A stretch of DNA of 21,333 nt, taken from positions 1 through 21,333 of the IMG/VR virus record IMGVR_UViG_3300018420_000144. The stretch is one strand, 5' to 3'. The notes beneath the pieces were generated by a model, which was not told the DNA's origin, did not search any database, and saw only the letters and a list, made by a program, of their open reading frames with translations. The stretch comes from a virus. The position numbers and the translations under genes were made by a program. Shown in pieces: positions 1 to 18,381 of this stretch. The stretch's first letter is position 1. The number at the start of each line of letters is the position of its first letter.

Positions 1-3000
1 CATTCTACCGCCAGCAAGTGCTGTCCAAGTAGTTGTTGCAGGAAGTGTTCCACCTGTTGTCCATGTTACACCGTCTGCGGAAACATTTGTGCCGTTTCCT
101 GTTGCGCTTGGTAAAGCAATAAACTTACCACCGTTTGATGTACCTGATTTGTCAAATTCTACTATAGCACCAGTGCTACTGTTTATAGATGTTATTGTAA
201 GCACTATATCGTTTGCTGGTGTTGCACCACCAACTGCTGTACCTAAAATAGTAACTGTCTCTAATCTTCCGTAACCAGTACCACCTGCTTTTAAAACAAC
301 TTCATACTTTGTACCTTTCTTGAAAACATCAAATGTAGCATTAATACCAGATCCTGTAGTAGAATTCGGTGCTGTATTAAGGTAATTTTCAAAAATGTTT
401 TGGTAGTGTAAGTCAGCCCAAGTAGTAGTAGCAGCCAATGTTCTTGCTGTTTCGCTTCTTGGTGGTGCACCAAATGTAACATTTGGTTGAATTACATATG
501 TAGTTGATGCATCCGGTGCTGAAATTGTAGTACCTGGAATTTCATGATCCCAACCTGCTGTACCTGTAGAAGGTTTTGTTACTGTAGCAACTTTTGTTCC
601 TGAGTTGTAAGTATCAATTATACCTATTTGTCCAATACCATTACCACCGTTTAGGTAAACTCTCATACCAATGTATGCTGTACTTGTTTGACTGTCTGTT
701 GCAGCAATGGTAATCTGTGTAGTTGTACCACCTTGTGCAGTGTTTGCTGATTGTATGTAACCAAATCCACCAAAGTTACCTGCGGCTTCTGGTGCATTTG
801 TTGAATCGTCTACATTGTCAAGCAGTCTAACATTGAATACTGCATCATCTCTAATTTCTTTTCCTAATTCTGAAGACGCATCAGATCCAGCACCAAACAG
901 TCCCATATCTGCTTCTGTATATTCTGAACCAGCATTATTATATTCTAGTGTGAAAATTTTATCTGCACCGTCTGTAGTTACTGATCCTACTGTTGCTTCG
1001 AATTGAAGTCTGTTGTCTACTATAGATGTTCCTGTAGTTTCTGTGCTATCAAATCCTTCTGCTACTGATCCAAAGTCACCGTAAGAATTGTTACCGTTGG
1101 TTCCTCTAATTCTTCCACCTTCAGTTGACAGGTATCCAATGTGTGAGTAGTAAGTAAACACTGATACAAGCTCTGCTCTACCATTGTTTGCTACCCAAGC
1201 ACCAATACCGTCGGAAATTACCTGTGTAAAGTCGTTGGATACTATTGAATCATTACCACCATTGTGTAATGCTCCGTCAATTTTTTGTCCTATGGCTGCG
1301 TTACCAAATGTTGTAACGTTTTGTACATAAGGCGAACGTGAAATAATCCAACCTCTGAAATCATCTGGTCCCCAACCTGGATCAAGTGATGCATATGCAC
1401 CCGCTGACACTCTTGATGTTCCATACTCGTTTGGTTGTAAAAGGTCGCCATTTAAGCCATCTAGTGTTTGGTTTCTTACACCAGTTCCGTTTCTTAAGTA
1501 ATAGAAATATTCTTCTTGTGATCCTGTAACTGCATTTGCATAGTATCTTGCAGCATATCGTGACTTGTAGTTGGAAGTCCACTGCAGATCCCATTTAAGT
1601 GCATCTATATAAGTGTCAACATCTCTTGCACAAGCAGTTTCATCGTACAACATTTCAACATTTGCACTTCCTGATGCAGTAGTTAATGTTACTGCACTAC
1701 CTGCATATCGTGAAGTTGCAATTTTAAACTGTGTTGCACTAACAACATCGTACACATAGTATGTTGTACCTGCAACAATATTTCCAAAGGTTGTACCTGT
1801 AAATTTAATTGCTGCATTTCTTTTCAACCAACCTGTATCACTTATAGTAATAACATCTGTTGTTATTGTTGTGTTTGTTATAGTGCCACTGAATGCATCG
1901 TCTATGTAAGCAGCAACTTCTGCTTTAATAAAGTCTCTGTTTTCTTCTAGTTTTAATCTAGCGTAGTCTCTATTTCTAATTTCAGTTGCACAAACGTCAC
2001 CTTCATCAGTTGCACTGTAGAATATTGTGTCTAGTTTATCCATCAACAACGCAACTCTTGCTGCCGCTGTTGCGTCACTATTTAAGTAAGTTGCAGTGTC
2101 GCCTGCAATCACAGTTGCTAGATATTTAAAAGCAGCTCTTGTTGCAGTCTTTTGTCCTAAAGTGTAAACATCACTTGAAGTACTACGCAAGTATGCTAAT
2201 GATGCAATATGTGTAGCAAAATTTGTTGAGTCTGCATTAATTGCGCCTGCGCCTAACATAAAGTCAAACATTACTGCTTCAAGTATTAATCTTGTATCTC
2301 TTTTACACTTAGCCTCGTCATATACAAGTGTAGGATAGTTAGTATCAATGTAACTGTCAACCAGTGTTACAAGGGCCTCTTGCTGCGCATCTAAGGTCTC
2401 TGCAGCGGTGATAAGTGCTGTAGTTGAACTTACAGCATTCGTTACTGCTGGATAGTTTTCTACGTGTGCAGGTACACTTAAACCAGTTGCGTCTGTTAAT
2501 GTAAACACACTACCACCAAATGTTTCACTAACTGTAAATGTGTTAGCGGCTGGTGTGCTTATAATCCAATACTTTGTATCTTTTACTAAGTTATTAGACG
2601 CTTCTAATGGAATAAATGCATCACCAACTTGTAAATTGTGTGCTGCACTTGTTGTTATAACATTTGATGCTGTTGTAGTTACAGTAACAAACGGTAAGTC
2701 TGCTCCTGTTGAATCTCCAGCAAGTGTGTTAAGAATAATATCAAAGTTATTTTCAATAACTGTTGCAACAGATGCACCAGCATCTGCATTCATGTATTGT
2801 GGAATTGTACTTTGTAAACCTGTAATAGTTGTACTTCTAGCAACTTTTGCTAACAATTCTTTCAAATAGTTATATGCTGAAATTGTTTGTGTAACTGCAT
2901 TGCTATTTAATGCACTTGTAGAACTATTTCCATCCCAATATGCTTTTGCTGCATTAAGTATTTGATAGTTTCCACCATATGTTAAATCATAACTAAATGC

Positions 3001-5826
3001 GTCAACAATATATCCAACATCTTGTCTACACTTTGTCTTACTATATTTTAGTGTAGGAAAGTTATTTGTAATATACTGTATAACTTCTTCTTGTAAGAAT
3101 TTTTTGTTGTACTCAATATTTTTCTTAGCAGTACCATATCCTGACAAGTAAGATGAATTATAACCTGTTGGCTCTGTTAAGTTGGTTGTATGTTTTACAC
3201 CAAGTTTAAAATCAATTTGCTCTGCTATCACATCAACTAATTTTGATGTAATTCCTGCAGTTTCAGCGTCATCTGCTAAAGGCCATGTTTGATCTTGTGA
3301 AGTTGTATTTCCTGTAGTAGGAGTAACTGATGTACCGTCAACAACATTACCAATAAATCCTTTAATATGTTTTAAAGTTTCTATAGAATAATAAGAATCA
3401 GTAACATCTGTATTACTATCTGCTTCTTGTTGTGCTGCAACATTTGTTGAACGAACCTCGTCGCCTAATATAACTGTTTCTGCAGGAACAATAATAGGTA
3501 ATATCTCTTTGTATCTACCTGACTTAACGTTAATTGTAACATTAGGTACTAATCTTGTAGGAATAGCACTTGTGTCGCCTGCTGTAATTGTATCAGTAAC
3601 AATTTTCATTAGCGTAGCGATTGTAGCCGATACTCCTGCTTCTGTAGTGTAGTTAGTATCAATGTACTGTGCTGCTACCGCTGTTGAGTCATTGCTGTCT
3701 TGGTACGCTGTTGCCGGTGCAGTGTTATTCAAAACACTATTAATTATTGTTTCTAAATGTCCGTATGCAGCAACAGATTGTTCTGCCTCTGCAGCCAATC
3801 CTGCTCCACCATATACTTTATCTTCTGATGGGTCTGAAAATTCACCGTCTGCACTAAATCCGTTTACAAAAGATAACGCTGCTGCACGTACTTTTAAATT
3901 TCCGCCGTGTCCAATATCCCAGATAAGTCTGTCAATAATAAATCCAACATCTCTTTCACATTTATATTCATCAAAGTCAAAATTTTCCCAGATACTTCCT
4001 GGTGTTGCATTTGCTACTTGATACTCTATGTAACTAGAAGTTTCTCTTTGTAAAAATATTCTATTTCTTTCTAATAGATACTGTGCGTTAGGATTTCTTG
4101 GTCCGTTTTCTACTTGTTCACATGCATATCTGATTGACTTGAATGGTTTATCTACAGTTCTTCCGTATGTTGGTGCAGGTCCGTCTGTACCATGAGGAGC
4201 AACATAATAAACTTGATCTGTTGCACCTAGTGTTCTCCATTCAGGTAGTGTTCCGCTTGAAACTAATACTTGTCCTTCTGTACCAATTGGTAATCTAGCA
4301 GGTCCTGCTCCTGAATAGTAAACAAGATCTCCTGTTGCACTTAGTACATCTATATCGCTACCAACGGTAAACGCATTCCAGTAACTACCTGTTACATCTT
4401 GATCTGGTCTTGAATTATCTGCTCCGCCACCTTCTGCGCCTATAGTAGATCCATCGTCTGCTTCTGATCTATGATTTTGAATACAAACATAATTGTTTGC
4501 ACCAAATCTGACCAAATCGCCTTTGAAGTATTCTCTGTCATCAGTCCATGTGCCTGTCCAGTTTAATCCTTCGTTAAGTTGATCCCAATAAGTTGCGTTT
4601 CCTGGTAGTGCTGCTACTGTAGCAGTCATTGTACCTGTTGCTGACGTAGGTGTAAATACTGTTCCGCCAGGTGTAGTTGAAATCGTAAATTCTGTTCCGC
4701 TGTCTACTGTTTTAATATAGTAAGTTGCACTTGTAAATACATTTCCAAATGTAGTACCTGACAATTGAATTGCCATGTTTGCAACCATACCTGTTGTATC
4801 GTCAGCAGTAAATATGTTTGTTCCTGCTGCTGTTTCTGATACTGTTGCTGTTATAGATGAACTATCTATTTTAGCTCTATATGTAAATCCGTTTAATCTT
4901 ACTACTTCACCAATTTTGTAACTTGTACCAATTGCCCAATCATTTGAGAATGTATAGTTTTCTGCAAATAGATCCCAATCTGTATTTCCAGAAGCAGTTG
5001 GAACTGTTCCTGTGTGTGTTGATTTTGAAACATATTGGTTACCACCGTATCTTACTATATCACCATTTTGATATGGTGTACTGATGCTCCATGTATCTTC
5101 AAATTCTAAACCTTCTACAAATTGATTCCATGATCCTGCTGCCACGTCAGCAGCAAAATCTGCTGTTGATGTGTGATGTTCACCTGCAGGTACAACCCAT
5201 AAACCGGCTCCCTGTTTTACAACATCATTTGCTTTGTATCTTGTTGCTTGTGCCCATGCGCCTTTGTAGTCAATACCTGTGTTAAAAGTATCCCAATATG
5301 CTGTATCGGCTTCTTGTCCTAGTGCTGCATCTGCTGTTGACGTATGTCCTGTTTTACATCTATATGTATAACCGCCATATCTTACCAAATCACCAACTAG
5401 GTATCTAGTTGATATTGCCCAATCTGCTTTCCAGTCTAATCCTTCTGCATATAAATCCCATTTGGCTTGATCGGCTTCTAATCCTGTGCTTGTTTCAACT
5501 CCGGAAGATCCTGATGATGCTGCACTATTAGAAGTATGAGCAGTGTTTGCAATGTATAAACTGCCTCCATATCTAACAACATCATTTAGTGCGTACGATG
5601 TGCTTACAGACCATTCGTCTCTCCAACGTTGTCCGTCACTCATCTGGTTCCATTTACTTGGAACAAAGTCTAAGTCTGTGTAAAAATTGTTGTCAGATGT
5701 ATGTCCTACAGCACAAATATAAGTTTTTCCACCGTATTTTACTACATCGTCAATGTAATATTGCGTTGAACCTGTCCAGTCGCCCTTCCAGACAAATCTA
5801 ATTCTACCTAATTTAAACTCTGCCAT
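1..5826 (-). CDS. Giant fibre-like virion structural protein, 3' end outside window
   Basis: Open from the ATG at 5826 (begins MAEFKLGRIRF) to the left edge: 1942 codons without a stop in the stretches I checked. It is a paralogue of the next gene upstream (start 11481). Seen in order: seven CBM5/12-like Trp/Tyr repeats (residues about 7-489), a pectin-lyase-like beta-helix opening (GRTVDKPFKSIRYA; later YKEILPIIVPAETVILG), four copies of a Cys-Arg-Asp motif over about 800 residues, and a conserved core (SLDPGWGPDD, DGALHNGG, NGNNSYGDFGS). A GGATPAND module follows, then the first blade of an Asp-box propeller at the edge. By alignment with its paralogue it carries about 720 extra residues before the propeller, so the full protein may be near 2600 residues (inference). 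Such proteins are annotated as structural or tail-fibre-like in marine T4-like phages. The late promoter lies 23 bases upstream of the ATG; the Shine-Dalgarno is weak (GGAAG). The exact virion position is unknown. Confidence 0.85.
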   Translation of the reverse strand, partial: MAEFKLGRIRFVWKGDWTGSTQYYIDDVVKYGGKTYICAVGHTSDNNFYTDLDFVPSKWNQMSDGQRWRDEWSVSTSYALNDVVRYGGSLYIANTAHTSNSAASSGSSGVETSTGLEADQAKWDLYAEGLDWKADWAISTRYLVGDLVRYGGYTYRCKTGHTSTADAALGQEADTAYWDTFNTGIDYKGAWAQATRYKANDVVKQGAGLWVVPAGEHHTSTADFAADVAAGSWNQFVEGLEFEDTWSISTPYQNGDIVRYGGNQYVSKSTHTGTVPTASGNTDWDLFAENYTFSNDWAIGTSYKIGEVVRLNGFTYRAKIDSSSITATVSETAAGTNIFTADDTTGMVANMAIQLSGTTFGNVFTSATYYIKTVDSGTEFTISTTPGGTVFTPTSATGTMTATVAALPGNATYWDQLNEGLNWTGTWTDDREYFKGDLVRFGANNYVCIQNHRSEADDGSTIGAEGGGADNSRPDQDVTGSYWNAFTVGSDIDVLSATGDLVYYSGAGPARLPIGTEGQVLVSSGTLPEWRTLGATDQVYYVAPHGTDGPAPTYGRTVDKPFKSIRYACEQVENGPRNPNAQYLLERNRIFLQRETSSYIEYQVANATPGSIWENFDFDEYKCERDVGFIIDRLIWDIGHGGNLKVRAAALSFVNGFSADGEFSDPSEDKVYGGAGLAAEAEQSVAAYGHLETIINSVLNNTAPATAYQDSNDSTAVAAQYIDTNYTTEAGVSATIATLMKIVTDTITAGDTSAIPTRLVPNVTINVKSGRYKEILPIIVPAETVILGDEVRSTNVAAQQEADSNTDVTDSYYSIETLKHIKGFIGNVVDGTSVTPTTGNTTSQDQTWPLADDAETAGITSKLVDVIAEQIDFKLGVKHTTNLTEPTGYNSSYLSGYGTAKKNIEYNKKFLQEEVIQYITNNFPTLKYSKTKCRQDVGYIVDAFSYDLTYGGNYQILNAAKAYWDGNSSTSALNSNAVTQTISAYNYLKELLAKVARSTTITGLQSTIPQYMNADAGASVATVIENNFDIILNTLAGDSTGADLPFVTVTTTASNVITTSAAHNLQVGDAFIPLEASNNLVKDTKYWIISTPAANTFTVSETFGGSVFTLTDATGLSVPAHVENYPAVTNAVSSTTALITAAETLDAQQEALVTLVDSYIDTNYPTLVYDEAKCKRDTRLILEAVMFDFMLGAGAINADSTNFATHIASLAYLRSTSSDVYTLGQKTATRAAFKYLATVIAGDTATYLNSDATAAARVALLMDKLDTIFYSATDEGDVCATEIRNRDYARLKLEENRDFIKAEVAAYIDDAFSGTITNTTITTDVITISDTGWLKRNAAIKFTGTTFGNIVAGTTYYVYDVVSATQFKIATSRYAGSAVTLTTASGSANVEMLYDETACARDVDTYIDALKWDLQWTSNYKSRYAARYYANAVTGSQEEYFYYLRNGTGVRNQTLDGLNGDLLQPNEYGTSRVSAGAYASLDPGWGPDDFRGWIISRSPYVQNVTTFGNAAIGQKIDGALHNGGNDSIVSNDFTQVISDGIGAWVANNGRAELVSVFTYYSHIGYLSTEGGRIRGTNGNNSYGDFGSVAEGFDSTETTGTSIVDNRLQFEATVGSVTTDGADKIFTLEYNNAGSEYTEADMGLFGAGSDASSELGKEIRDDAVFNVRLLDNVDDSTNAPEAAGNFGGFGYIQSANTAQGGTTTQITIAATDSQTSTAYIGMRVYLNGGNGIGQIGIIDTYNSGTKVATVTKPSTGTAGWDHEIPGTTISAPDASTTYVIQPNVTFGAPPRSETARTLAATTTWADLHYQNIFENYLNTAPNSTTGSGINATFDVFKKGTKYEVVLKAGGTGYGRLETVTILGTAVGGATPANDIVLTITSINSSTGAIVEFDKSGTSNGGKFIALPSATGNGTNVSADGVTWTTGGTLPATTTWTALAGGRM
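1650..1875 (-). repeat. Recurrent beta module, copy C
   Basis: About 70 residues reading NAAIKFTGTTFGNIVAGTTY, then YVYDVVSATQFKIATS and AVTLTTASGSANVEM. It ends directly before the fourth Cys-Arg-Asp motif (YDETACARD). GTTFGN and the V-x-S-x-T-x-F-x-I pattern are shared with copy A. Confidence 0.6.
2477..2690 (-). repeat. Recurrent beta module, copy B
   Basis: About 70 residues reading ITTSAAHNLQVGDAFIPLE, then KYWIISTPAANTFTVS and GGSVFTLTDATG. It is the second, more divergent copy of the module inserted in CBM-like repeat 6, and lies between the second and third Cys-Arg-Asp motifs. Confidence 0.55.
4360..5805 (-). repeat. Seven tandem CBM5/12-like repeats in the giant partial protein
   Basis: Seven repeats follow W-x5-Y-x2-xD-[VI]-V-x-[YFL]-G/N-x2-Y-x-C/A-x3-HTS and end in an aromatic block such as KWDLYAEG or YWDTFNTG. 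Examples are WAISTRYLVGDLVRYGGYTY and WSISTPYQNGDIVRYGGNQY. The spacing of Trp, Tyr, GD and GG matches the small chitin/cellulose-binding module CBM5/12 (ChtBD3 type). Repeat 6 is split by an inserted beta module. Carbohydrate binding is an inference from the pattern. The repeats lie at the N-terminus, which in classical T4 fibres faces the virion, so they could equally be a shaft or attachment region. Confidence 0.7.
4615..4865 (-). repeat. Recurrent beta module, copy A (inside CBM-like repeat 6)
   Basis: About 80 residues with the signatures MAIQLSGTTFGNV, TYYIKTVDSGTEFTIS and GGTVFTPTSATG, placed between the GG..Y half and the closing YWDQLNEG half of the sixth CBM-like repeat. The same pattern recurs at about 2477-2690 and 1650-1875 in the same gene. 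It resembles a short beta domain seen widely in marine phage structural proteins; no function is claimed. Confidence 0.65.
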
Positions 5827-5883: not shown

Positions 5884-8800
5884 CTACTCAATTCCAAATG
5901 AGTTCATAAACATTGTTTGTGCTAATATGCTGCCTGATATTCCAGCATTTGGTCCTTCAAAATCAGCACGTTGTCTAAATAAGTTTTCTAAACTTGCTAC
6001 GTTACCAATAGCATCTGGACCTACCTTAACAGTACCAGCAATAAAGCTCGCTGTCAATAAATCCGAACCACCAACATTCAATCTATTTTGTAAATAAGAT
6101 TTAATTGCTCTTTGCGTAGGCACTACATTGTTACTGTCCTGTGAAAATAAAGGATCAGTTGAAAATTCTCTAACAACTGCCCCTGATCCACCTAGTCTAA
6201 CACCGCCAAGTGCTAATTCTGTTAGTCCGCCAAAGTCGAAGAAGTCAGCACTAATAGTAACAATACCAGTTGCCTGTTCAACAGCAAACAATTCTCCGCA
6301 ACGGAAGTTACCGTTTTGGTCTGTGGATGTGTAGAATACTCTACCACCGTTGTTTTCATAAACTTCGTTTTCCGGAGCATAAACAAAAGTTGCTGCTTGA
6401 TACAATGTTGGATAATTAGTTTGTTCAAAGTTTCCTGTTCCGACATCAAGGAAATCATGTCCTGTGATTCTAACCTGTGAATATCTTTGTCTAATTTCTA
6501 CTTGTGATGTATGTTCAAGGAAATCATCTAAAGTTAGTTTAGGTGTTATTCTAAATCTTACAGTTTTGTTTCCTTTTGCATCTTCATCTAGTAATTCTTC
6601 AGTCTGTGTAGTATAGAATTCAGTTGCACCTCTAAATCTTAATTGTGTACCAGGTCCTGGTACAGGTCCAACTATACCTGATATTGTTACAAATTGTCCT
6701 GAAGGTATGTTATCTGCAAAACCATCTCCAAGCACAGTGACTTGTGTGCTTGATGTTCTATAACCTGAACCTCTGTTTACCCAGCCTGGTTGTGCAAGTA
6801 CTCTGTCAGCAATCCTTATCTCAGCATATGCGTCTACTGTGTTGTTAGGATCAACAAACGTTAGTGTAGGTTGGAAAGTTTCATATCCACTGCCTGGTTC
6901 CCACATTCTAATTTCGTTAATGTTTCTTGATTCAACAATTACTCTTCCTTTTGCTCTACATCCAGTTAGTATTTTTTCTCCCTGGCTACTGTTCTTAGGA
7001 ACAACAATCCATGTACCTGTACTATTTGAAAATGTAGTAGAGTCAGTAAGTGTTATATCTGGATTACCAAAACCAACAGTATCCCATTCCAATTTATTTG
7101 TTAATGTTCTAGTAGTCCAAGTTACACAATCTTCTGATGTTGCTGCAAATTGTGTTGTCAAATCAGCAGGAACATCACCTGAGATAGGTCTTAATCCGTT
7201 ATCACCTACAGCAAAGAAAACTCCTTGTCCGTATGCTATTTTTTTCCAATAGTGTGCGGTTGAACCATCTTGTGTAGGCATTGTTCCGCCGTACCAAGTA
7301 ACACTATTATAACTATATGAAAGATCACCTGTTGTTGAAATAGCAACCCATCTGTTATTTCCGTATGTAATTGATGTCCATTCTTTTGTAGCAGAGTCAT
7401 CAATCACATCCATAATTTCTGCATTCCATGTCCAAGTATCTGTAAGTGCGTTGTATTCACCTATTGCAGCAAAGTTTCCTGTATCACAAATAGCAACAAA
7501 CTTTCCTTTACCGTACGCTACAGATTTCCATTTGTTAAATGTTGAATCTCCTATGTTTGGTAATTCAGTTTCCGTCCAACTTGCTCCACCGTCAATACTA
7601 TAAATTCCTTTATCGGCTGTTTCAGATACTGCAAGGAATACTCCATAGTCTCCGTTACCTACAAGTGATTTACCGTATGCCATATCAGTCCATGTACTAT
7701 CTACAGGAAGTGATACCGCTGTCCAATTTATACCGTTTTTAGAATAAAGTCCAATTCCAGAATTATATGCAACTGCCGCAAATCTATTTGATCCTGCTGC
7801 TAGTGCTCTCCAATCTCCGCCTTGTGGTAGAGTTTCTTGTGTCCAATTAGTTCCGTCAATACTGTAACTACTGTCAGTGCTAGAGCTAGGTAATAACACA
7901 AATCTTCCGCTTTGTGCAATTCCTGTTACTGATACTGCTGTAAGAGTGTTTGTACTATCTTCAGACACACCTGCAACTTCTAGATAACAATCGTTTTCAG
8001 GTGTTGCACCACCTAGTTCGTCACCTGGAATAGTAATAGTTGCTCCTACAGTATATCCTGCTCCAATGCTGACTATACTTGCAACATATTTTCTTCCTAA
8101 TTTAGTTACATCAAATGTTGCATCTTCAATTACATTGTCTCCGCCGCCAGTTCCTGTAACACCTTGGTATTCTTCTTCTGTTTCGCCATAAGCAATTGAT
8201 GTCCAGGGAGATGCACCTGCTAAGTCTACAACTTCTTGTTCGAAGCCAGGATGTTGGAAAATTGGTCTAGGCTCTAATCTGTATGTGTTGTCAGTAAATA
8301 GTGCTGGCTGACTTGGAAATCCTGGAATAATATGATCCCAACCAGGCTGCCCGTCTGATTCTCTTGCTACTGTTGCTTTTTGATTAATGTTGTTGTAGCC
8401 AGTTACATAACCATACTGTCCTGCACCTTTACCTGAAGTAATAATTAATCGTAACCCAAGAATATCAGCCTCTTCAAAATCACTATTTGTTGCTAGTGTT
8501 AATGTAGTTTCATCACCAAACTGAGCGTTATTACCTATGTTTTGGTATCCGCCTGCACCTGGTGTGCCACCTGAATCGCCTGGTCTGTTTTTTACAAGTG
8601 CTTGATAAATTCCGCCATCACGTGTTTCTTCAAATACTGCTTCTGCATTTGTACCAGCACCTGCAAATTGATATGTAGCGTTTGTATATTCTTGACCTGC
8701 ATTACGATACTCTAGTGCAAGAATTTCATCGTTAACTTCTCCTGCAAAGGCAATACCAATTGTTGCTTGTTCTGTTCTGTTATCAACTTCTGCAAATGCA

Positions 8801-11481
8801 GGTGTTTCTGTCGGATCGTTACCGTCTGCAACTGCACCAAAGTCACCATAAGAACTGTTACCGTTAGTAGCACGTATTACACCGCCCTTTTCTGCAAACA
8901 TACCTATCTGTGCGTAATATGTAAACACTGATACTAGCTCGCCTCTTCCATTGTTTAAAATCCAAGCACCTATACCATCGCTACAAACTTGCGTAAAGTC
9001 ATTTGAAACAATCGATTTGTTACCGCCTGCGTGTAGCGCACCATCAATTTTTTGTCCTACACAATTTGTACCAAATGTCGTAACATTTTGAATGTAAGGT
9101 GATCTTGTTTTAATCCATACACTTTCGTCATCTACACCCCAGCCTGGATCAAGTGATACAAATGAACCTCCGGTTGGTCTTCTATATAATTCGTTTACAC
9201 CTACAGGATTTAAATCTCCGTTTAACCCTTTGGTAGTTAAGTTTCTAACACCTGTAGCATCTCTAACATAAAACATGTCTTCGCGCTCTGATCCTTGTAC
9301 AAGTCTTCTGTAATATCTTGCTTCTATCAAAGAACTGTAGTTTCCTGAATACCTAGTATCCATTATAAATCCATCTACATATCTACTAATCATGTCTTGT
9401 AAATAATTAGAATTATAAGCAATTGCGTTATCTGTAAGATATGCTATAACTTCAGCAATTAAAAAATCTCTGTTTGCTTCAAGAATCTGTCTTGAATTAT
9501 ACCATGCCCAGTTTTCACCTACTGTATGATTTTGTATAGTGTTTGATCCTGTTACTGTTACTTCTGCTCCTGTGCCTGCAATGTGATAATCTAAATAACT
9601 TCTAATATCTGTAATCAAATCTACAACGTTATCAGGTGCATCTGGTGCAAGAACTGGTTCGTATGTTAAATCTTCTCCTGTAGCAATATCAACATCATAC
9701 ACTTCACCTTTTAATGTAGCATTAGTATTTTGTGCTACAGTATTAGAAGTAGATGGAGTTATAGCAATATTAGTCATTACGCTAGGTATAATTGTAGCCA
9801 AATAACTTAGCGCAGTATAATGACTTGATAAATCACCTGCTAATTCTGCAACTGGTTTAGATGCTGTTATACTTGTGCTTCTTAATTCTGTTCCTAGCAC
9901 TGCAACGTTTGCCGGGACTCTCAATGGTAATACTTCTTCGTATAATCCTGTACCCATTTGCACAGAAATATTTGAATAGTCATCCATCATCATAATTCTA
10001 TCTAGTGCATATCTCAATGACTTGTAAGGCTTTTGAGGATCAAAACCTCTGTTAGTAGTTCTGTCATCAACTCCTGTATTTTTGTCTACATAAATGAATT
10101 TGTTTGCTATTCCAAAGGTTTTGTATTCTACAAAATTAGCATCATCAACAACTAATATTTGATTTTCGCCACCTATTGGCAATGATGTTGTGCCTATTGT
10201 ACTTAGATCACCTGCTCTTTGGAATCCAAATGTAAGCAAGTCTCCTTCAGCACTTAAAGCAACGTTGTCGCCTGCTTGTGATAAAAGATCCCAATAGTAA
10301 AAACCTTCTCCGTTGTCTCCAGGATAGTTAAATGTATTTGCATCATGATTGAAGTTACATTTATATGCATTACCTCTGTATAAAACAATATCTCCTACTG
10401 AATAATCTTCACCTGAAGCCCAACTGTTTCTCCATGCTATTCCAGGAATAATTATTTCCCATTGTGAATTATCTAAAAATGCTAGTGAACTATCGCCTTG
10501 TGCTACATCTGTATCTGCTAAAGCAAGATATAAGTTACCGCCACGTCTTACAAGATCACCTGTTAGATATGCTGTACTTTCGGAGTATTGTCCTCTAATT
10601 CTTGCTGCTTTATGTAAGATAGTCCATGATGTGTCTTGCGGAAATTGCGGTGCAAAAGATGCTGAAGGATTTACACCATTACTATTTCTTGTAGCAATGT
10701 AAATGTATCCACCATGTTTTACTATGTCTCCAATTGCATAGTATGTTTCCCCACTCCAGTTATTATAAAAATTGAATCCAGGAAATTCTGTTATAAAACA
10801 GTTATCTGTAATTACTTCACCTGAGGTGTGTCCTTTTGTAACTCTAAGTATAGATCCACCATACTTCACAAGATCGTTTGGTCTGTATCTTGTAGCGTCT
10901 GACCATGATCCTACATACTCAATTCCTTCATGTAAGATTTCCCAATTTTCTAATGTACTATCATCATCACCATCATTGTTACCAATTTCAGTTCCGTCAT
11001 CATTAGTACCGCTTGTGTGTTCAATTATACATTTATACGTGTTACCATTGTATCTAACAACATCGCCTACACCATATCTTGTAGTAGGTGTCCATACATT
11101 CGCCCAATTGTATGCGTCAGCATACTCTGCCCATTTATCAGCATTTGCTGCAAAAGTAGATCCTGAAGTATGTGATGTAACTGCTAGGTATAGTTTACCA
11201 CCATAAAGTGTGATATCGCCTGGATTATATAAAGTTGCAGTCTGCCAGTTACCACGCCAAGCAACACCATCTGTCATTTTTCTCCATGCAGGAGTAAATT
11301 CTGAATCTTGTGGATCTGCTAGATATTCTTGGTCAGTTTGAAATGCGCTTGCTGTGTGCTGTCTTACACAAACCCAAGTTTGTCCACCATATCTAACTAC
11401 ATCATCTCTATTGTAAACAATTGCAGTAACCCAACCTGATCTCCAAGTATATCTAAGTCTGCTTATCTTAAATTCTGCCAT
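5884..11481 (-). CDS. Giant fibre-like virion structural protein (1865 aa)
   Basis: Begins MAEFKISRLRYTW, like its downstream paralogue. Seven CBM5/12-like repeats (residues about 10-403) are followed by a beta-helix-type segment (KPYKSLRYALDR, LPLRVPANVAVLGTELRS; about 460-540). Next come the core shared with the paralogue (SLDPGWGVDD, QKIDGALHAGG, NGNSSYGDFG; about 770-890), a GYTVGATITIPGDELGG module, and an Asp-box propeller (about 1190-1475). The C-terminal part reads GNFRCGELFAVEQATGIVTI and DSNNVVPTQRAIKSYLQNRL, a kind of ending common in structural proteins of marine T4-like phages. AAGGA lies 8 bases before the ATG, and the previous gene ends 11 bases upstream, so the two are co-transcribed. 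Likely a fibre or other appendage; host binding is an inference from the sugar-binding-like repeats. No transmembrane segment or signal peptide is seen. Confidence 0.88.
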   Translation of the reverse strand: MAEFKISRLRYTWRSGWVTAIVYNRDDVVRYGGQTWVCVRQHTASAFQTDQEYLADPQDSEFTPAWRKMTDGVAWRGNWQTATLYNPGDITLYGGKLYLAVTSHTSGSTFAANADKWAEYADAYNWANVWTPTTRYGVGDVVRYNGNTYKCIIEHTSGTNDDGTEIGNNDGDDDSTLENWEILHEGIEYVGSWSDATRYRPNDLVKYGGSILRVTKGHTSGEVITDNCFITEFPGFNFYNNWSGETYYAIGDIVKHGGYIYIATRNSNGVNPSASFAPQFPQDTSWTILHKAARIRGQYSESTAYLTGDLVRRGGNLYLALADTDVAQGDSSLAFLDNSQWEIIIPGIAWRNSWASGEDYSVGDIVLYRGNAYKCNFNHDANTFNYPGDNGEGFYYWDLLSQAGDNVALSAEGDLLTFGFQRAGDLSTIGTTSLPIGGENQILVVDDANFVEYKTFGIANKFIYVDKNTGVDDRTTNRGFDPQKPYKSLRYALDRIMMMDDYSNISVQMGTGLYEEVLPLRVPANVAVLGTELRSTSITASKPVAELAGDLSSHYTALSYLATIIPSVMTNIAITPSTSNTVAQNTNATLKGEVYDVDIATGEDLTYEPVLAPDAPDNVVDLITDIRSYLDYHIAGTGAEVTVTGSNTIQNHTVGENWAWYNSRQILEANRDFLIAEVIAYLTDNAIAYNSNYLQDMISRYVDGFIMDTRYSGNYSSLIEARYYRRLVQGSEREDMFYVRDATGVRNLTTKGLNGDLNPVGVNELYRRPTGGSFVSLDPGWGVDDESVWIKTRSPYIQNVTTFGTNCVGQKIDGALHAGGNKSIVSNDFTQVCSDGIGAWILNNGRGELVSVFTYYAQIGMFAEKGGVIRATNGNSSYGDFGAVADGNDPTETPAFAEVDNRTEQATIGIAFAGEVNDEILALEYRNAGQEYTNATYQFAGAGTNAEAVFEETRDGGIYQALVKNRPGDSGGTPGAGGYQNIGNNAQFGDETTLTLATNSDFEEADILGLRLIITSGKGAGQYGYVTGYNNINQKATVARESDGQPGWDHIIPGFPSQPALFTDNTYRLEPRPIFQHPGFEQEVVDLAGASPWTSIAYGETEEEYQGVTGTGGGDNVIEDATFDVTKLGRKYVASIVSIGAGYTVGATITIPGDELGGATPENDCYLEVAGVSEDSTNTLTAVSVTGIAQSGRFVLLPSSSTDSSYSIDGTNWTQETLPQGGDWRALAAGSNRFAAVAYNSGIGLYSKNGINWTAVSLPVDSTWTDMAYGKSLVGNGDYGVFLAVSETADKGIYSIDGGASWTETELPNIGDSTFNKWKSVAYGKGKFVAICDTGNFAAIGEYNALTDTWTWNAEIMDVIDDSATKEWTSITYGNNRWVAISTTGDLSYSYNSVTWYGGTMPTQDGSTAHYWKKIAYGQGVFFAVGDNGLRPISGDVPADLTTQFAATSEDCVTWTTRTLTNKLEWDTVGFGNPDITLTDSTTFSNSTGTWIVVPKNSSQGEKILTGCRAKGRVIVESRNINEIRMWEPGSGYETFQPTLTFVDPNNTVDAYAEIRIADRVLAQPGWVNRGSGYRTSSTQVTVLGDGFADNIPSGQFVTISGIVGPVPGPGTQLRFRGATEFYTTQTEELLDEDAKGNKTVRFRITPKLTLDDFLEHTSQVEIRQRYSQVRITGHDFLDVGTGNFEQTNYPTLYQAATFVYAPENEVYENNGGRVFYTSTDQNGNFRCGELFAVEQATGIVTISADFFDFGGLTELALGGVRLGGSGAVVREFSTDPLFSQDSNNVVPTQRAIKSYLQNRLNVGGSDLLTASFIAGTVKVGPDAIGNVASLENLFRQRADFEGPNAGISGSILAQTMFMNSFGIE
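7050..7905 (-). repeat. Asp-box (BNR-like) propeller repeats
   Basis: Five Asp-box-like turns occur in series: SIDGTNWT, SKNGINWT, SIDGGASWT, SYNSVTWY and SEDCVTWT. Most are followed by a W-x-[DSK]-[MVI]-[AT]-[YF]-G strand and an F-x-A-[VI] strand. SIDGGASW fits the S-x-D-x-G-x-S-W Asp-box exactly. This indicates a sialidase- or Ycf48-like beta-propeller fold. No sialidase catalytic set is evident, so a structural or ligand-binding role is more likely than an enzymatic one. Confidence 0.65.
10270..11451 (-). repeat. Seven tandem CBM5/12-like repeats in the 1865-aa protein
   Basis: Seven units of about 50-65 residues with the same W-Y-GD-V-GG-Y-HTS pattern as in the paralogue, for example WTPTTRYGVGDVVRYNGNTY, WSDATRYRPNDLVKYGGS and WASGEDYSVGDIVLYRGNAY. 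Spacers vary and the third contains an Asp-rich insertion (NNDGDDD). Units 4 and 5 deviate most, and unit 6 replaces the first Trp by Tyr. Confidence 0.7.
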
Positions 11482-12212: not shown

Positions 12213-13280
12213 TTATCCTAACATTAGTGCAAATGATGCTGCAATATCATTTGCTAAAATTTCTGATACAGCACCTGAAGCACCTGCAGGACTTGCCCAA
12301 GCAGTACCTGACCAAACTTCTAATGCATTTGTATCTGTGTTAAATCTTGTCATACCAACTACTGCATATGCAGTTGGTCTTTGTGATGTATTTCCTCTAG
12401 GAGGTACAAATCCGTTTGTACCTGCAATTTTAAAATACCCTGTTCCTGTTTGTTCTATTTGTGTAATGGCATTTGGTTCAACGTTTGTAATCACATTATC
12501 AGTAACTTTTAAGTTTCCTAATCTTACTCCGCCGCTGCCGTTGCCATCTAAGTGTAAGTCTAGACCAGTTGTGGTTGTTATTTCGTTATCACGAAATCTC
12601 AAATCTCCAACATCTAATGTGCTAAGTGATAGTAAATCAGTATTTAAATTATTTGCAAATAAATTTTTCCATTTAAATGCACTGCTTCCTAAATCAAATG
12701 TGTTATCTTGTTCAGGTATCAAATCACTTTTAATTGCCGCATTTATTTGAATTGAATCTGTAAGGTCATCACCTATAGTAATATTTCCGCCAATAGTTAC
12801 ATTGCCATCTACGTTTACATTACCAGTTACATACAAATCACCGTCTACGTTTGCTGATGACAATACTTCTAATGTGCCTGCTCCGTTTGGTCTAAACTCT
12901 AAATTTTGATTAGATTCTGTAGTGGAAATAGTATTTCCTTCTATCCTTAAATCATCAACGTCTACTTTTGAGTGATATATAACAGGATCTGATCCACTAG
13001 GAGCAAAACTTATAGTATCTAAATCACTAGAGATAGTGTTACCAGTAATGTTTAAATTACCAATATCAATTTCAGTATCAATTTGAATGTTTGTTGATCT
13101 TGTAGTTCCTGTGACGTGTAAATCTGCTGTAGGTGCTGAATTGTTGACTCCAATGCGAGCATTGTTTACATCAACATATAAAATATCTGGGTCTGTTGCT
13201 CCATTTCTAAAAGTCAAATCTACGCCATTACGTATGAGATTTGCCTTTAAGAGCGGCCCACTTATACGACCTATTGCCAT
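12213..13280 (-). CDS. Fibre-like structural protein (355 aa), paralogue of the 553-aa protein
   Basis: First gene after the late promoter at 13374. The N-terminus, GRISGPLLKANLIRNGVDL followed by LYVDVNNARIGVN, matches the 553-aa protein (start 15056) almost position by position. The middle holds repeated short beta strands (VDGDLYVTGNVNVDGNVTIG, then GGNITIGDDLTDS) typical of trimeric beta-structured fibres. A DLGSSAFKWKNLFANNL segment matches NLGSGTL...RRWNNIFV in the paralogue. Near the end comes the PRGNTSQRPTAYAVVGMTRF motif followed by LEVWSGTAW, a pattern frequent in phage fibres. It ends ASFALMLG, like YSLILG in the paralogue. AAGGAG lies 6 bases before the ATG. Its virion position is not determinable from sequence. 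Confidence 0.85.
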   Translation of the reverse strand: MAIGRISGPLLKANLIRNGVDLTFRNGATDPDILYVDVNNARIGVNNSAPTADLHVTGTTRSTNIQIDTEIDIGNLNITGNTISSDLDTISFAPSGSDPVIYHSKVDVDDLRIEGNTISTTESNQNLEFRPNGAGTLEVLSSANVDGDLYVTGNVNVDGNVTIGGNITIGDDLTDSIQINAAIKSDLIPEQDNTFDLGSSAFKWKNLFANNLNTDLLSLSTLDVGDLRFRDNEITTTTGLDLHLDGNGSGGVRLGNLKVTDNVITNVEPNAITQIEQTGTGYFKIAGTNGFVPPRGNTSQRPTAYAVVGMTRFNTDTNALEVWSGTAWASPAGASGAVSEILANDIAASFALMLG

Positions 13281-13394: not shown

Positions 13395-15056
13395 TTAGCC
13401 CAGTATTAGGCTGTATGCATCGCCTAAATCTTCCATAAAAGGAACGTCGATTTCGGCACCGCCACCTGTTGATAATTGATATCCGTCGTCTGTTTGAGCA
13501 CCTACTGTAAGTACAATATCGTTGGTAGGAGTAGAGCCTCCTGTAAAATTGTTACCAGTAATTGTAATTAAGTCGCCGGTTATATAACCTTGTCCTACTG
13601 TGGTAATAGTTATAGTAGATATTGCTCCGGAAGTTATTGTAATAGAAAATTCAGCATCAACACCGCTTCCATCTGTAACACCTGTTAAACTAGTTGCTGT
13701 TTGATTAGGTAATCCTGTTACAACACCTATGCCTGTAACTACTTCGATAGTACCTGCAAAGACTTCTAGTAAATTTTGTTGATCGTTCCAACGTGTGTCA
13801 CCTAGTTCAGGACGAGCTGGACGAGAAGCATCATCAGCAGCAGGAATTAATAAAGCATTTGTATCAAGAAACCTTAAGTAACCTATACCCGTATTTGCAA
13901 AAGTTAATGGTGTTTCGGGATATTCTCTAGGTCCGCCGTCTATATCAGTAAGATTTGTTATTGCATCAGTAGCACCAGTTACTGCTATAGTGCCTGTAGG
14001 TGCTGGTCTTGATCCTGAACCATCATAGTTAAAGTTTACGGTGTAAGTACCAGCACTATCTGATCCTGTTGAAGTGCCTGTAATAACAGTTCCATCTATG
14101 ATACCTACACCTGTAAGTAACATTCCTGGTATAAATGTTCCTGTAATCGTTCCGCCTACTGTTAAAACATTACCACTGATACTAGCAGCAGTACTTGATG
14201 CACTTATATTATTCCACTTCGTCCATTCAATTATGTTAATACCTGTATCCGGTGCAAGTATTATATCATCGTTACTTTGTAGTGCAAAAATTTGATTATT
14301 AACACCATCTAATTTTTGTTGATCACTTACTCTAACTTCTAATGGTAATACTGTATCAGTGTTTGTTAAATTATCTGTTACAAAAATATTGTTCCATCTT
14401 CTTACAGAACTATCAACAAGTGTTCCTGAACCTAAATTCCAAGTAGCGTCATCGCCAGGAATAATCGATTGTGAAAAGTCTGGAACTATCTCAACAACAT
14501 CTCCTGAACCGCCCCCTACATCAGGATTATATAGTTCGTCTCCAATAGTCAGGTCGCCAAGTTTACTAAGGTTTCCATCCATAGTCAAGTCACCTGTTAC
14601 TCCTAGGTCACCATAAATGTTTGCTGCACTTGGAAAATCTACTGTTCCTGACTCAGACCTAACTTCAATTGTTTGATTAGTGTTAAGTCCGCTTATGGTA
14701 TTATCATTAAAATCTAAATCATCTGATCTCATTCTTTGGAATGTCATGTAAGCCCCAGGAGTAGCCGGCATTATATTAAGCGGTCCATAAACTGTGGAAA
14801 AAGTTGCAGGTGCTTTTGCAATAACTCTATCAATAGTTGCTACATTATCAATTTGGACTCGTGTGCTTCTCAGGGTGGTAGGAACATCTACATCATACTG
14901 AGGAGTATCATAGTTTACACCTATTCTTCCGTTGTTAACGTCAAGGAATAGTACAGGGGTTGAATCGTATGTGGTGTTACTAAATTTAAGATCTACACCG
15001 TCTCTATGTAGATTCTGTTGTAGTAATGCTCCTGTAATTCGCCCCAATTGAGACAT
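13395..15056 (-). CDS. Fibre-like structural protein (553 aa)
   Basis: N-terminus GRITGALLQQNLHRDGVDLK and LFLDVNNGRIGVN is paralogous to the 355-aa protein. Fibre-like strand repeats follow (YGDLGVTGDLTMDGNLSKLG), then WNLGSGTL and RRWNNIFVTDNL. Compared with the 355-aa form it has gained two recognisable modules. One is a segment (GNVLTVGGTITGTFIPGMLL, then GVGIIDGTVITG, about residues 280-345). The other is near the C-terminus: GQGYITGDLITITG and GGSTPTNDIVLTV, also found in both giant proteins. A RPARPELGDTRWNDQQNLLE motif corresponds to the GTxxQRP...LEVW motif of related fibres. It ends DAYSLILG. AGGAG lies 6 bases before the ATG, and the upstream gene ends 9 bases before it. Confidence 0.85.
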   Translation of the reverse strand: MSQLGRITGALLQQNLHRDGVDLKFSNTTYDSTPVLFLDVNNGRIGVNYDTPQYDVDVPTTLRSTRVQIDNVATIDRVIAKAPATFSTVYGPLNIMPATPGAYMTFQRMRSDDLDFNDNTISGLNTNQTIEVRSESGTVDFPSAANIYGDLGVTGDLTMDGNLSKLGDLTIGDELYNPDVGGGSGDVVEIVPDFSQSIIPGDDATWNLGSGTLVDSSVRRWNNIFVTDNLTNTDTVLPLEVRVSDQQKLDGVNNQIFALQSNDDIILAPDTGINIIEWTKWNNISASSTAASISGNVLTVGGTITGTFIPGMLLTGVGIIDGTVITGTSTGSDSAGTYTVNFNYDGSGSRPAPTGTIAVTGATDAITNLTDIDGGPREYPETPLTFANTGIGYLRFLDTNALLIPAADDASRPARPELGDTRWNDQQNLLEVFAGTIEVVTGIGVVTGLPNQTATSLTGVTDGSGVDAEFSITITSGAISTITITTVGQGYITGDLITITGNNFTGGSTPTNDIVLTVGAQTDDGYQLSTGGGAEIDVPFMEDLGDAYSLILG

Positions 15057-17505: not shown

Positions 17506-17967
17506 TTAAGCGTCGTCAGTGAAGTCTGTATCATCTGTACCAGTTAATGTGTTATCATCACCAGCCTCTTCAACTTCTGCTGCACCATCGGAAGTAGATG
17601 TACTAAAGTTCCACGGCACTGACAAACCGTCATATGCATTAGAACCAGTTCCACTTGGTTTTACCAATGTTGCTTTCTTTCCAGAAATTTTGCTTACGCC
17701 ATAAGTTTCACCGTCGTCCATTTTAAAAGAAATTGACATTTCGCCTGCTGATAATGCTGCTGGCAAAATACCTGTTTTCAATTCACAAGTAAACAAACCT
17801 GCTGTTTCAATTTCTTCACAGACAAATTTCTTTGAGCCTTTCTGTTTAACAATATAACCTTCTTTAACTGCTGTGTCGTTATGAAAGTTAACTTTGATTT
17901 CATTTCCAGAAGCAGTAGGACCTACGCCTTCCTTTCCGAAAAATCTTTTATTAAGTGGTCTTCCCAT
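17506..17967 (-). CDS. Small acidic-tailed structural-cluster protein (153 aa)
   Basis: The start was chosen at the ATG at 17967 (MGRPLNKRFFGKEGVGP), because AGGAG sits 7 bases upstream and the upstream in-frame ATG at 17994 lacks a ribosome site. The body is beta-rich (EIKVNFHNDTAVKEGYIVKQ, SKKFVCEE, LFTCELKTGIL, MSISFKMDDGETYGVS, KKATLVKPSG). It ends in a strongly acidic, flexible tail (EVEEAGDDN ... DDTDFTDDA). I associate the MGRPLNK-type start with a small conserved protein in late clusters of T4-like marine phages; its function is not known to me. It is the first gene after the late promoter at 18070 and the unusual structured leader, so it is probably made in quantity late in infection. 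Confidence 0.8.
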   Translation of the reverse strand: MGRPLNKRFFGKEGVGPTASGNEIKVNFHNDTAVKEGYIVKQKGSKKFVCEEIETAGLFTCELKTGILPAALSAGEMSISFKMDDGETYGVSKISGKKATLVKPSGTGSNAYDGLSVPWNFSTSTSDGAAEVEEAGDDNTLTGTDDTDFTDDA

Positions 17968-17988
17968 TTGTTTTCTCCTATATAAGTA

Positions 17989-18065
17989 GTCCAATCCGGG
18001 TTCTATCCGGTACGCTGTGGGTTAAACAGCATAAGTCCGCCACAATATGCGGCTCGCTATCTGAC
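17989..18065 (-). promoter_or_regulatory. tRNA-sized four-way-junction leader of the late transcript
   Basis: A 77-nt stretch on the minus strand. A 7-position closing stem (GTCAGAT with ATTGGAC; one A-G mismatch and one G-U) encloses three hairpins: CCGC/GCGG (8-nt loop), GCTGT/ACAGC (7-nt loop) and CCGG/CCGG (7-nt loop). The last hairpin abuts the closing strand with no linker. The first arm could instead pair as GCCGCA/TGTGGC. Its 5' base coincides with the start predicted from the late promoter. It lacks tRNA hallmarks (no TTC-type T loop; C after the anticodon position), so it is called a leader structure and not a tRNA gene. Confidence 0.4.
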
Positions 18066-18069
18066 ACAA

Positions 18070-18078
18070 GTATTTATC
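18070..18078 (-). promoter_or_regulatory. T4-type late promoter (GATAAATAC)
   Basis: The minus strand reads GGATAAATACTTGTG, close to the T4 late TATAAATA box. It overlaps the TAA stop of the small gene upstream (the stop is part of TAAATAC). With the box at -13 to -6, the start falls at 18065, about 98 bases before the ATG at 17967. Confidence 0.7.
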
Positions 18079-18346
18079 CTTTGCTCAGTAAAGCCATTAG
18101 TTCAACCTTGCTAATGGTGTTTAACAGTGCATTAATTTTGTCTATTTCGCCTTGAGCTTTTTCTATGTACAGTTCTTTTTTGGATTGTTTGTATTTGATA
18201 AGATAATCCATATAATGTTTCATATGGATATCGATTGAATCTTGTATACGTCTTACATCATGGCTAAACATAGGAAAACGTTTACGCCACTTTTGTAATT
18301 GTTCTCTTAACTTGTCAAAATCTTCATGACTTTTTATTTCAAGCAT
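18074..18346 (-). CDS. Small charged helical protein of unknown function (90-95 aa)
   Basis: Begins MLEIKSHEDFDKLREQLQKW at the ATG at 18346. A GTG at 18361 would add five residues. Neither has a clear Shine-Dalgarno; the ATG is favoured because the candidate promoter's -10 lies just upstream and the GTG would be untranscribed from it. The protein is predicted almost wholly helical and basic: RKRFPMFSHDVRRIQDSIDI, HYMDYLIKYKQSKKELYIEK, then AQGEIDKINALLNTISKVEL and a MALLSKG end. Coiled-coil or nucleic-acid-associated roles are possible; I do not recognise the family. It sits between the gp23 terminator and the next late promoter, so it forms its own small unit. Its expression timing may differ from the virion genes (inference). 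Confidence 0.72.
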   Translation of the reverse strand: MLEIKSHEDFDKLREQLQKWRKRFPMFSHDVRRIQDSIDIHMKHYMDYLIKYKQSKKELYIEKAQGEIDKINALLNTISKVELMALLSKG

Positions 18347-18352
18347 ACTAAT

Positions 18353-18381
18353 ATTTAACACTCAAAATGCAGTTTTGTCAA
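18353..18381 (-). promoter_or_regulatory. Candidate host sigma70-type promoter
   Basis: On the minus strand a perfect TTGACA (18376-18381) is separated by exactly 17 bases from TTAAAT (18353-18358), which matches TATAAT at four of six positions. The implied start lies about 7 bases on, at or next to the ATG at 18346, so a near-leaderless message is predicted. In an AT-rich genome such a match can be fortuitous. Confidence 0.4.

Follow-up and report, generated by a model that had tools for sequence, protein, structure and literature searches.

Regulatory leaders have been worked out in T4-like phages mainly for genes like 32 and 43. RNA control of initiation in T4 includes the gene 32 pseudoknot (PMC535899), the gene 43 hairpin and the hairpins of genes e, soc and 49 (PMC3014915). 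T4 late promoters consist of an 8-bp TATA box that precedes the transcription start by about one helical turn (PMC2988020). The Rfam family freshwater-2 (RF02980) has a consensus of three hairpins without a closing stem, and its entry gives the type "Cis-reg" only, without a stated function. Weinberg and colleagues reportedly introduced the family in a comparative survey of 2017. We found no open papers naming freshwater-2 or RF02980.

A freshwater-2 element in a predicted late leader

The window, the whole stretch of 21,333 nucleotides analysed here, contains a single Rfam match above cut-off (cmscan, Rfam 15), to RF02980, for which the gathering cut-off is 49.9 bits (Table 1). The match covers model positions 1-84 completely and has the architecture of the family, three hairpins followed by a Shine-Dalgarno sequence and AUG. 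The covariance score places the folded stretch in this already catalogued, unexplained family. The original prediction described a 77-nt, tRNA-like leader fold. The structure proved real, with its hairpins backed by relatives, but the predicted 3' end was too short, since the element runs on to the Shine-Dalgarno sequence and the AUG start codon at 17967-17965 (minus strand), and the tRNA-like reading is unsupported.

Table 1. Features of the element and its surroundings, in window coordinates.
Feature	Coordinates	Strand	Basis or comment
TAAATA box, T4-late-type promoter	18071..18076	-	sequence; box upstream in nearly all relatives
Predicted +1 (G at 18065) and 5' strand of proposed closing stem P1, GUCAGAU	18059..18065	-	retained in most relatives even without 3' partner
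RF02980 freshwater-2 RNA, full-length match	17965..18054	-	71.3 bits, E 2.2e-09
Hairpin 1, GCCGCA-UAU-UGUGGC, alternative CCGC/GCGG	18039..18053	-	MFE; hairpin of at least 4 bp in 84/88 distinct leaders
Hairpin 2, UAUGCUGU-UUAACCC-ACAGCGUA, 8 bp, 7-nt loop	18011..18033	-	Rfam alignment
CCCA at hairpin-2 apex, candidate partner of start region UGGG (17966-17963)	18018..18021	-	loop GCC only with AUGGC starts
Hairpin 3, CCGG-AUAGAAC-CCGG, 4 bp, 7-nt loop, conserved UAGAA loop	17996..18010	-	31 stem variants; all four pairs covary
Linker AUUGGAC, 3' strand of proposed P1	17989..17995	-	conserved in long-linker class, missing from short-linker class
Candidate short helix CUA (17989-17987) / UAG (17980-17978), overlapping Shine-Dalgarno	17978..17989	-	coupled states
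Shine-Dalgarno AGGAG	17975..17979	-	in Rfam consensus; conserved
MGRPLNK gene, 153 aa, directly behind element	17506..17967	-	mostly beta model, pLDDT 85

By energy alone, the stability of the 77-nt fold is modest. The 77-mer reaches -22.7 kcal/mol and is more stable than most shuffled sequences (z = -1.99; 7/200 shuffles equally good), but adding downstream sequence leaves an unremarkable fold (z -0.72); the closing stem is then lost and the three hairpins remain. The three consecutive hairpins are present as predicted, and hairpin 3 has the expected dimensions, but hairpin 2 has 8 bp rather than 5.

Strong covariation is seen in hairpins 2 and 3 across the homologous gaps that precede MGRPLNK-type genes, in agreement with the conserved pairing anticipated there. 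Together they are 98.1% paired, vs 77.2% when shuffled, with a covariation score of 0.491 vs 0.099 for shuffled and at most 0.063 for slid controls; shuffle values here and below ignore kinship. Pair 6 of hairpin 2 is G-C, U-A or A-U, exceptionless in 72 sequences, and the 31 distinct stems of hairpin 3 are 92.7% paired vs 45.8% with shuffled partners. RNAalifold, applied to the 72 sequences, predicted hairpins 2 and 3 as the only pairings in the leader, plus a 2-bp pairing within the coding sequence. Sequence conservation is strong in hairpin 2 and the UAGAA loop; in samples collected by protein, CUUAUGC also occurs as UUUAUGC, and UAGAAC as UGGAAC or UAGAAU.

Hairpin 1 is too variable for MAFFT alignment and was counted by a stem search near CUUAUGC. 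A stem of at least 4 bp ending within 4 nt of this motif occurs in 84 of 88 distinct leaders vs 26 in shuffled leaders, with about 45 different stems. The window folds it as GCCGCA/UGUGGC with a 3-nt loop; the alternative CCGC/GCGG is commoner among relatives. Some relatives have leaders too short for hairpin 1 (e.g., L006, L011, L067, L104 and L111).

Promoter, gene partner and distribution

Among relatives, the commonest distance from TAAATA to CTTATGC is 36 nt, and GT(T)C stands at offset 5 after the box in 88 of 129 distinct relatives. Taken alone, the box shows no enrichment in the window. From the late-type promoter we infer a transcription start at 18065 (minus strand), the G five bases past TAAATA, and therefore the 5' end of the RNA would be the start of the structure. 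Both box and G are in place, which agrees with the prediction of a structured leader beginning at the late +1.

A structure that starts at the predicted +1, with a first hairpin whose sequence is free to vary and which some relatives lack, would also suit a 5' mRNA stabiliser, shielding the late message from RNase E/RppH-type decay and playing no role in initiation control. However, a simple cap needs neither the conserved hairpin 2 and UAGAA loop nor an invariable AUGG, and relatives form two classes by the spacing between hairpin 3 and the start codon. We regard the stabiliser as a rather unlikely explanation.

A search of viral contigs for the conserved-core pattern returned at least 120 stretches. 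Because this pattern fixes the letters of hairpin 2, sampling by protein alone was added. With the protein of the window as query, 78/80 loci have the full element at the start codon; the remaining two are cut at the contig end, and one of these is still a partial match. Two distant relatives as queries gave 93/93 loci with the element at the start codon. All 18 of the long contigs carry one element each. A tandem copy of element and MGRP gene, with two different leaders, was seen in one contig (L110).

The MGRPLNK protein belongs to no Pfam or PHROGs family. The fold of its AlphaFold model has no match in the PDB and resembles uncharacterised phage proteins only, some of them from Agrobacterium phage Atu_ph07. 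In L083/L239 and L229 the first gene behind the element is an unrelated one (MATKK, MANT), and these contigs also carry an MGRP-like gene, which we read as lying behind the MATKK/MANT gene; the element therefore would belong to the front of the transcript and not only to one coding sequence. This arrangement bears on an autogenous operator, in which the MGRP protein would bind hairpins 2/3 and repress its own translation, like gp32 or S15. T4-like phages use such operators (PMC3014915), and the pairing of element and gene is strictly 1:1, but an operator of this kind is at odds both with the unrelated first genes and with a protein so diverse (identities down to 18%) beside a constant RNA core. 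We consider it improbable.

Wherever gp23 was found within reach of the element (181/181 cases), the two share a strand and gp23 is upstream. In the window the element is preceded by genes for a gp21-type protease, a phrog_10922 protein and gp23, and then by an orphan ORF of 90 aa. Behind gp23, near 18410-18385, stands a GC-rich hairpin with a T run (seen by eye; beyond the loop limit of the terminator scanner), and therefore the element is probably outside the gp23 unit. This setting also bears on a metabolite or ion riboswitch, for which a compact conserved domain adjoining a possible expression platform would be suitable; the single target gene lies in the virion region with no metabolic set, however, and no alternative terminator was found, leaving a riboswitch very improbable.

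Other features of the window concern neighbouring genes. A second TAAATA at 18346-18357 (minus strand) lies close to the 90-aa ORF, where the same spacing puts the late start on the A of the AUG, and a leaderless late message is possible. Two neighbouring ORFs at 12213-13280 and 13395-15056 (minus strand) are paralogues with 38% identity over 232 residues (MAIGRISGPLLKANLIRNG / MSQLGRITGALLQQNLHRDG) and probably encode virion or fibre proteins. Two very large consecutive ORFs at 5884-11481 (1865 aa) and 1-5826 (1942 aa, open at the window end), also on the minus strand, are of a size typical of fibre or adhesin-like structural proteins.

The capsid protein of the window is nearest to those of jumbo T4-like isolates, including Vibrio phage 2.275.O, Sinorhizobium phage Phosso and the CBB/GAP32 group. 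Three of these were scanned whole; the element is absent from them, and the gene after their capsid gene is unrelated. No relatives of the MGRPLNK gene were found in 50,697 phage records, and the window has no convincing DNA relatives in isolated phages. The carriers are uncultured T4-like aquatic phages. In bacterial genome contigs the pattern gave six matches, five of which are chance by context. The sixth (L223) is a true element, with late box, hairpins and an MGRPLKK start; its contig is assigned to a Rickettsiales MAG. Either a phage contig was binned together with its host or the binning is wrong, and we therefore claim no host.

Closing stem and start-region pairings

The proposed closing stem (P1) of the 77-nt fold spans 7 positions, with 6/7 pairs and one A.G mismatch. 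Folding recovered it in the MFE structure of the 77-mer and of 17965-18065, but it vanished when more downstream sequence was added. Its two strands occur independently: GGAC is absent in 40 of 129 distinct relatives, 34 of which keep the 5' GT(T)C after TAAATA, and present in 89, 7 of which are without GT(T)C. P1 has 68% of cells paired vs 62% shuffled, with a partner shuffle mean of 5.31 vs 5.41 pairs of 7, and the RNAalifold consensus of 72 sequences does not predict it. On these grounds we reject P1 as a conserved closing (acceptor) stem, and with it the four-way junction as the defining feature. P1 may form in the clade of the window and appears to be an optional feature rather than a defining one. 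The GUC strand may instead be an initiation-region motif at +1, because it is retained when the 3' partner is missing. By inspection, an alternative closing pairing UAGU/ACUA is without covariation, and a pseudoknot of the UAGAA loop with linker UUCUA fails in the main CUACU class.

A decayed tRNA or tRNA mimic had been suggested by the 77-nt length and the cloverleaf possible in the window sequence alone. However, ARAGORN found 0 tRNA genes, the Rfam scan gave RF02980 and no tRNA family, the UAGAA loop is not a T-loop and the closing stem is not conserved; a tRNA origin can practically be dismissed.

Two candidate pairings involve the start region. In the long-linker class, GGACUN...N'AGGAG, N/N' is A-U in 50 and U-A in 23 of 87 (coupled in 73/87). 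Counts on a protein tree are 9 changes for N and 10 for N', against 14 for the joint state, and therefore about five changes coincide. These states suggest a CUA/UAG or CUU/AAG helix beside the Shine-Dalgarno sequence, sometimes longer (CUCCU/AGGAG or CUUCU/AGGAG). It is 3 bp in the class of the window and absent from the short-linker class.

The second pairing is suggested by a hairpin-2 loop with CC (mostly CCA or CCCA) in 96/101 distinct forms, complementary to AUGG(G). The start is AUGG in 118/118 elements, and a scan of the whole virus collection gave 0 matches for AUG followed by A, C or T at the commonest spacing. On the alignment, the loop/start pair count is 86.7% vs 86.2% shuffled, a comparison that ignores kinship and in which the partner AUGG is near-invariant. 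Loop GCC occurs in 4 of 11 distinct hairpin-2 forms with AUGGC, a start rare among relatives, vs 0/90 with AUGGG (Fisher p 8e-5, kinship ignored). The corresponding numbers of changes on a protein tree are 5 for GCC, 7 for the start base and 8 for the two jointly, and therefore about four changes coincide. An AUGGC clade with MARS starts retains UCCA, not GCC, and the L083 loop is without CC. The pairing is just 3-4 bp long, and by inspection it does not extend as far as the third base of codon 2.

Proposed function and comparison with known RNA systems

The comparison of relatives shows the family, the hairpins and a fixed place before one gene and after a late-type box. Our preferred reading, which we hold with somewhat more confidence than doubt, is that the element is a 5'-terminal late-mRNA leader of the freshwater-2 family controlling translation initiation of the MGRPLNK gene in an uncultured T4-like phage. 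Translation control was among the options first proposed, and we retain it as the best reading, with start-region pairings suggested by covariation. Transcription from the late promoter at 18065 would yield an RNA starting with the structure, and the folded domain would keep the MGRPLNK start region partly closed, through the short CUN/N'AG helix beside the Shine-Dalgarno sequence and through base pairs between the CCA/CCCA of the hairpin-2 loop and AUGG(G). The initiation rate would then be set by a binder, most likely a protein recognising hairpin 2 and the UAGAA loop, or the ribosome itself.

More tentatively, the element could be a start-codon pseudoknot in which the hairpin-2 loop captures AUGG, the short helix lies over the Shine-Dalgarno sequence, and a putative phage or host protein on hairpins 2/3 switches one virion-region protein, in step with gp23, across a large group of uncultured T4-like phages. 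The loop/start pairing poses a cheap, concrete question: do T4-like phages tune virion protein supply by the RNA structure of late messages?

The T4 gene 32 leader serves a different gene and is without sequence likeness to the element. Its pseudoknot lies 5' of the initiation region (PMC535899), whereas the candidate pairing of the element, with limited covariation, is between the hairpin-2 loop and the start and includes the start codon. In T4 e, soc, 49 and I-TevI, as proposed here, RNA pairing sequesters the Shine-Dalgarno sequence or the AUG (PMC3014915). These precedents, and the late promoter immediately upstream, raise the idea of an e/soc-type silencer, a structure confined to long early transcripts. 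Late transcripts of gene e are without the inhibitory strand, however, whereas all conserved strands here lie downstream of the inferred +1 at 18065. The late transcript here would contain the whole structure, which does not match the gene e mechanism, and we give such a silencer hardly any credence. The manA and wcaG motifs are likewise cis-regulatory RNAs of T4-like phages discovered in metagenomes (PMC2864571), but in T4-like cyanophages they are tied to host-type metabolic genes, whereas the element is tied to a gene beside gp23.

With RF02980 the window shares the three hairpins, UUAUGC, GCGUA, UAGAAC, the Shine-Dalgarno sequence and the AUG, all in the same places. Added here are the promoter, the gene partner, the phage type, variants lacking hairpin 1 and the candidate start-region pairings. 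The family is known; the genomic context and a testable idea of its mechanism are new. An orphan Rfam family thereby gains a home, behind a late-type promoter, in the gp23 neighbourhood, with a single gene family and in a phage group near jumbo T4-like isolates by capsid.
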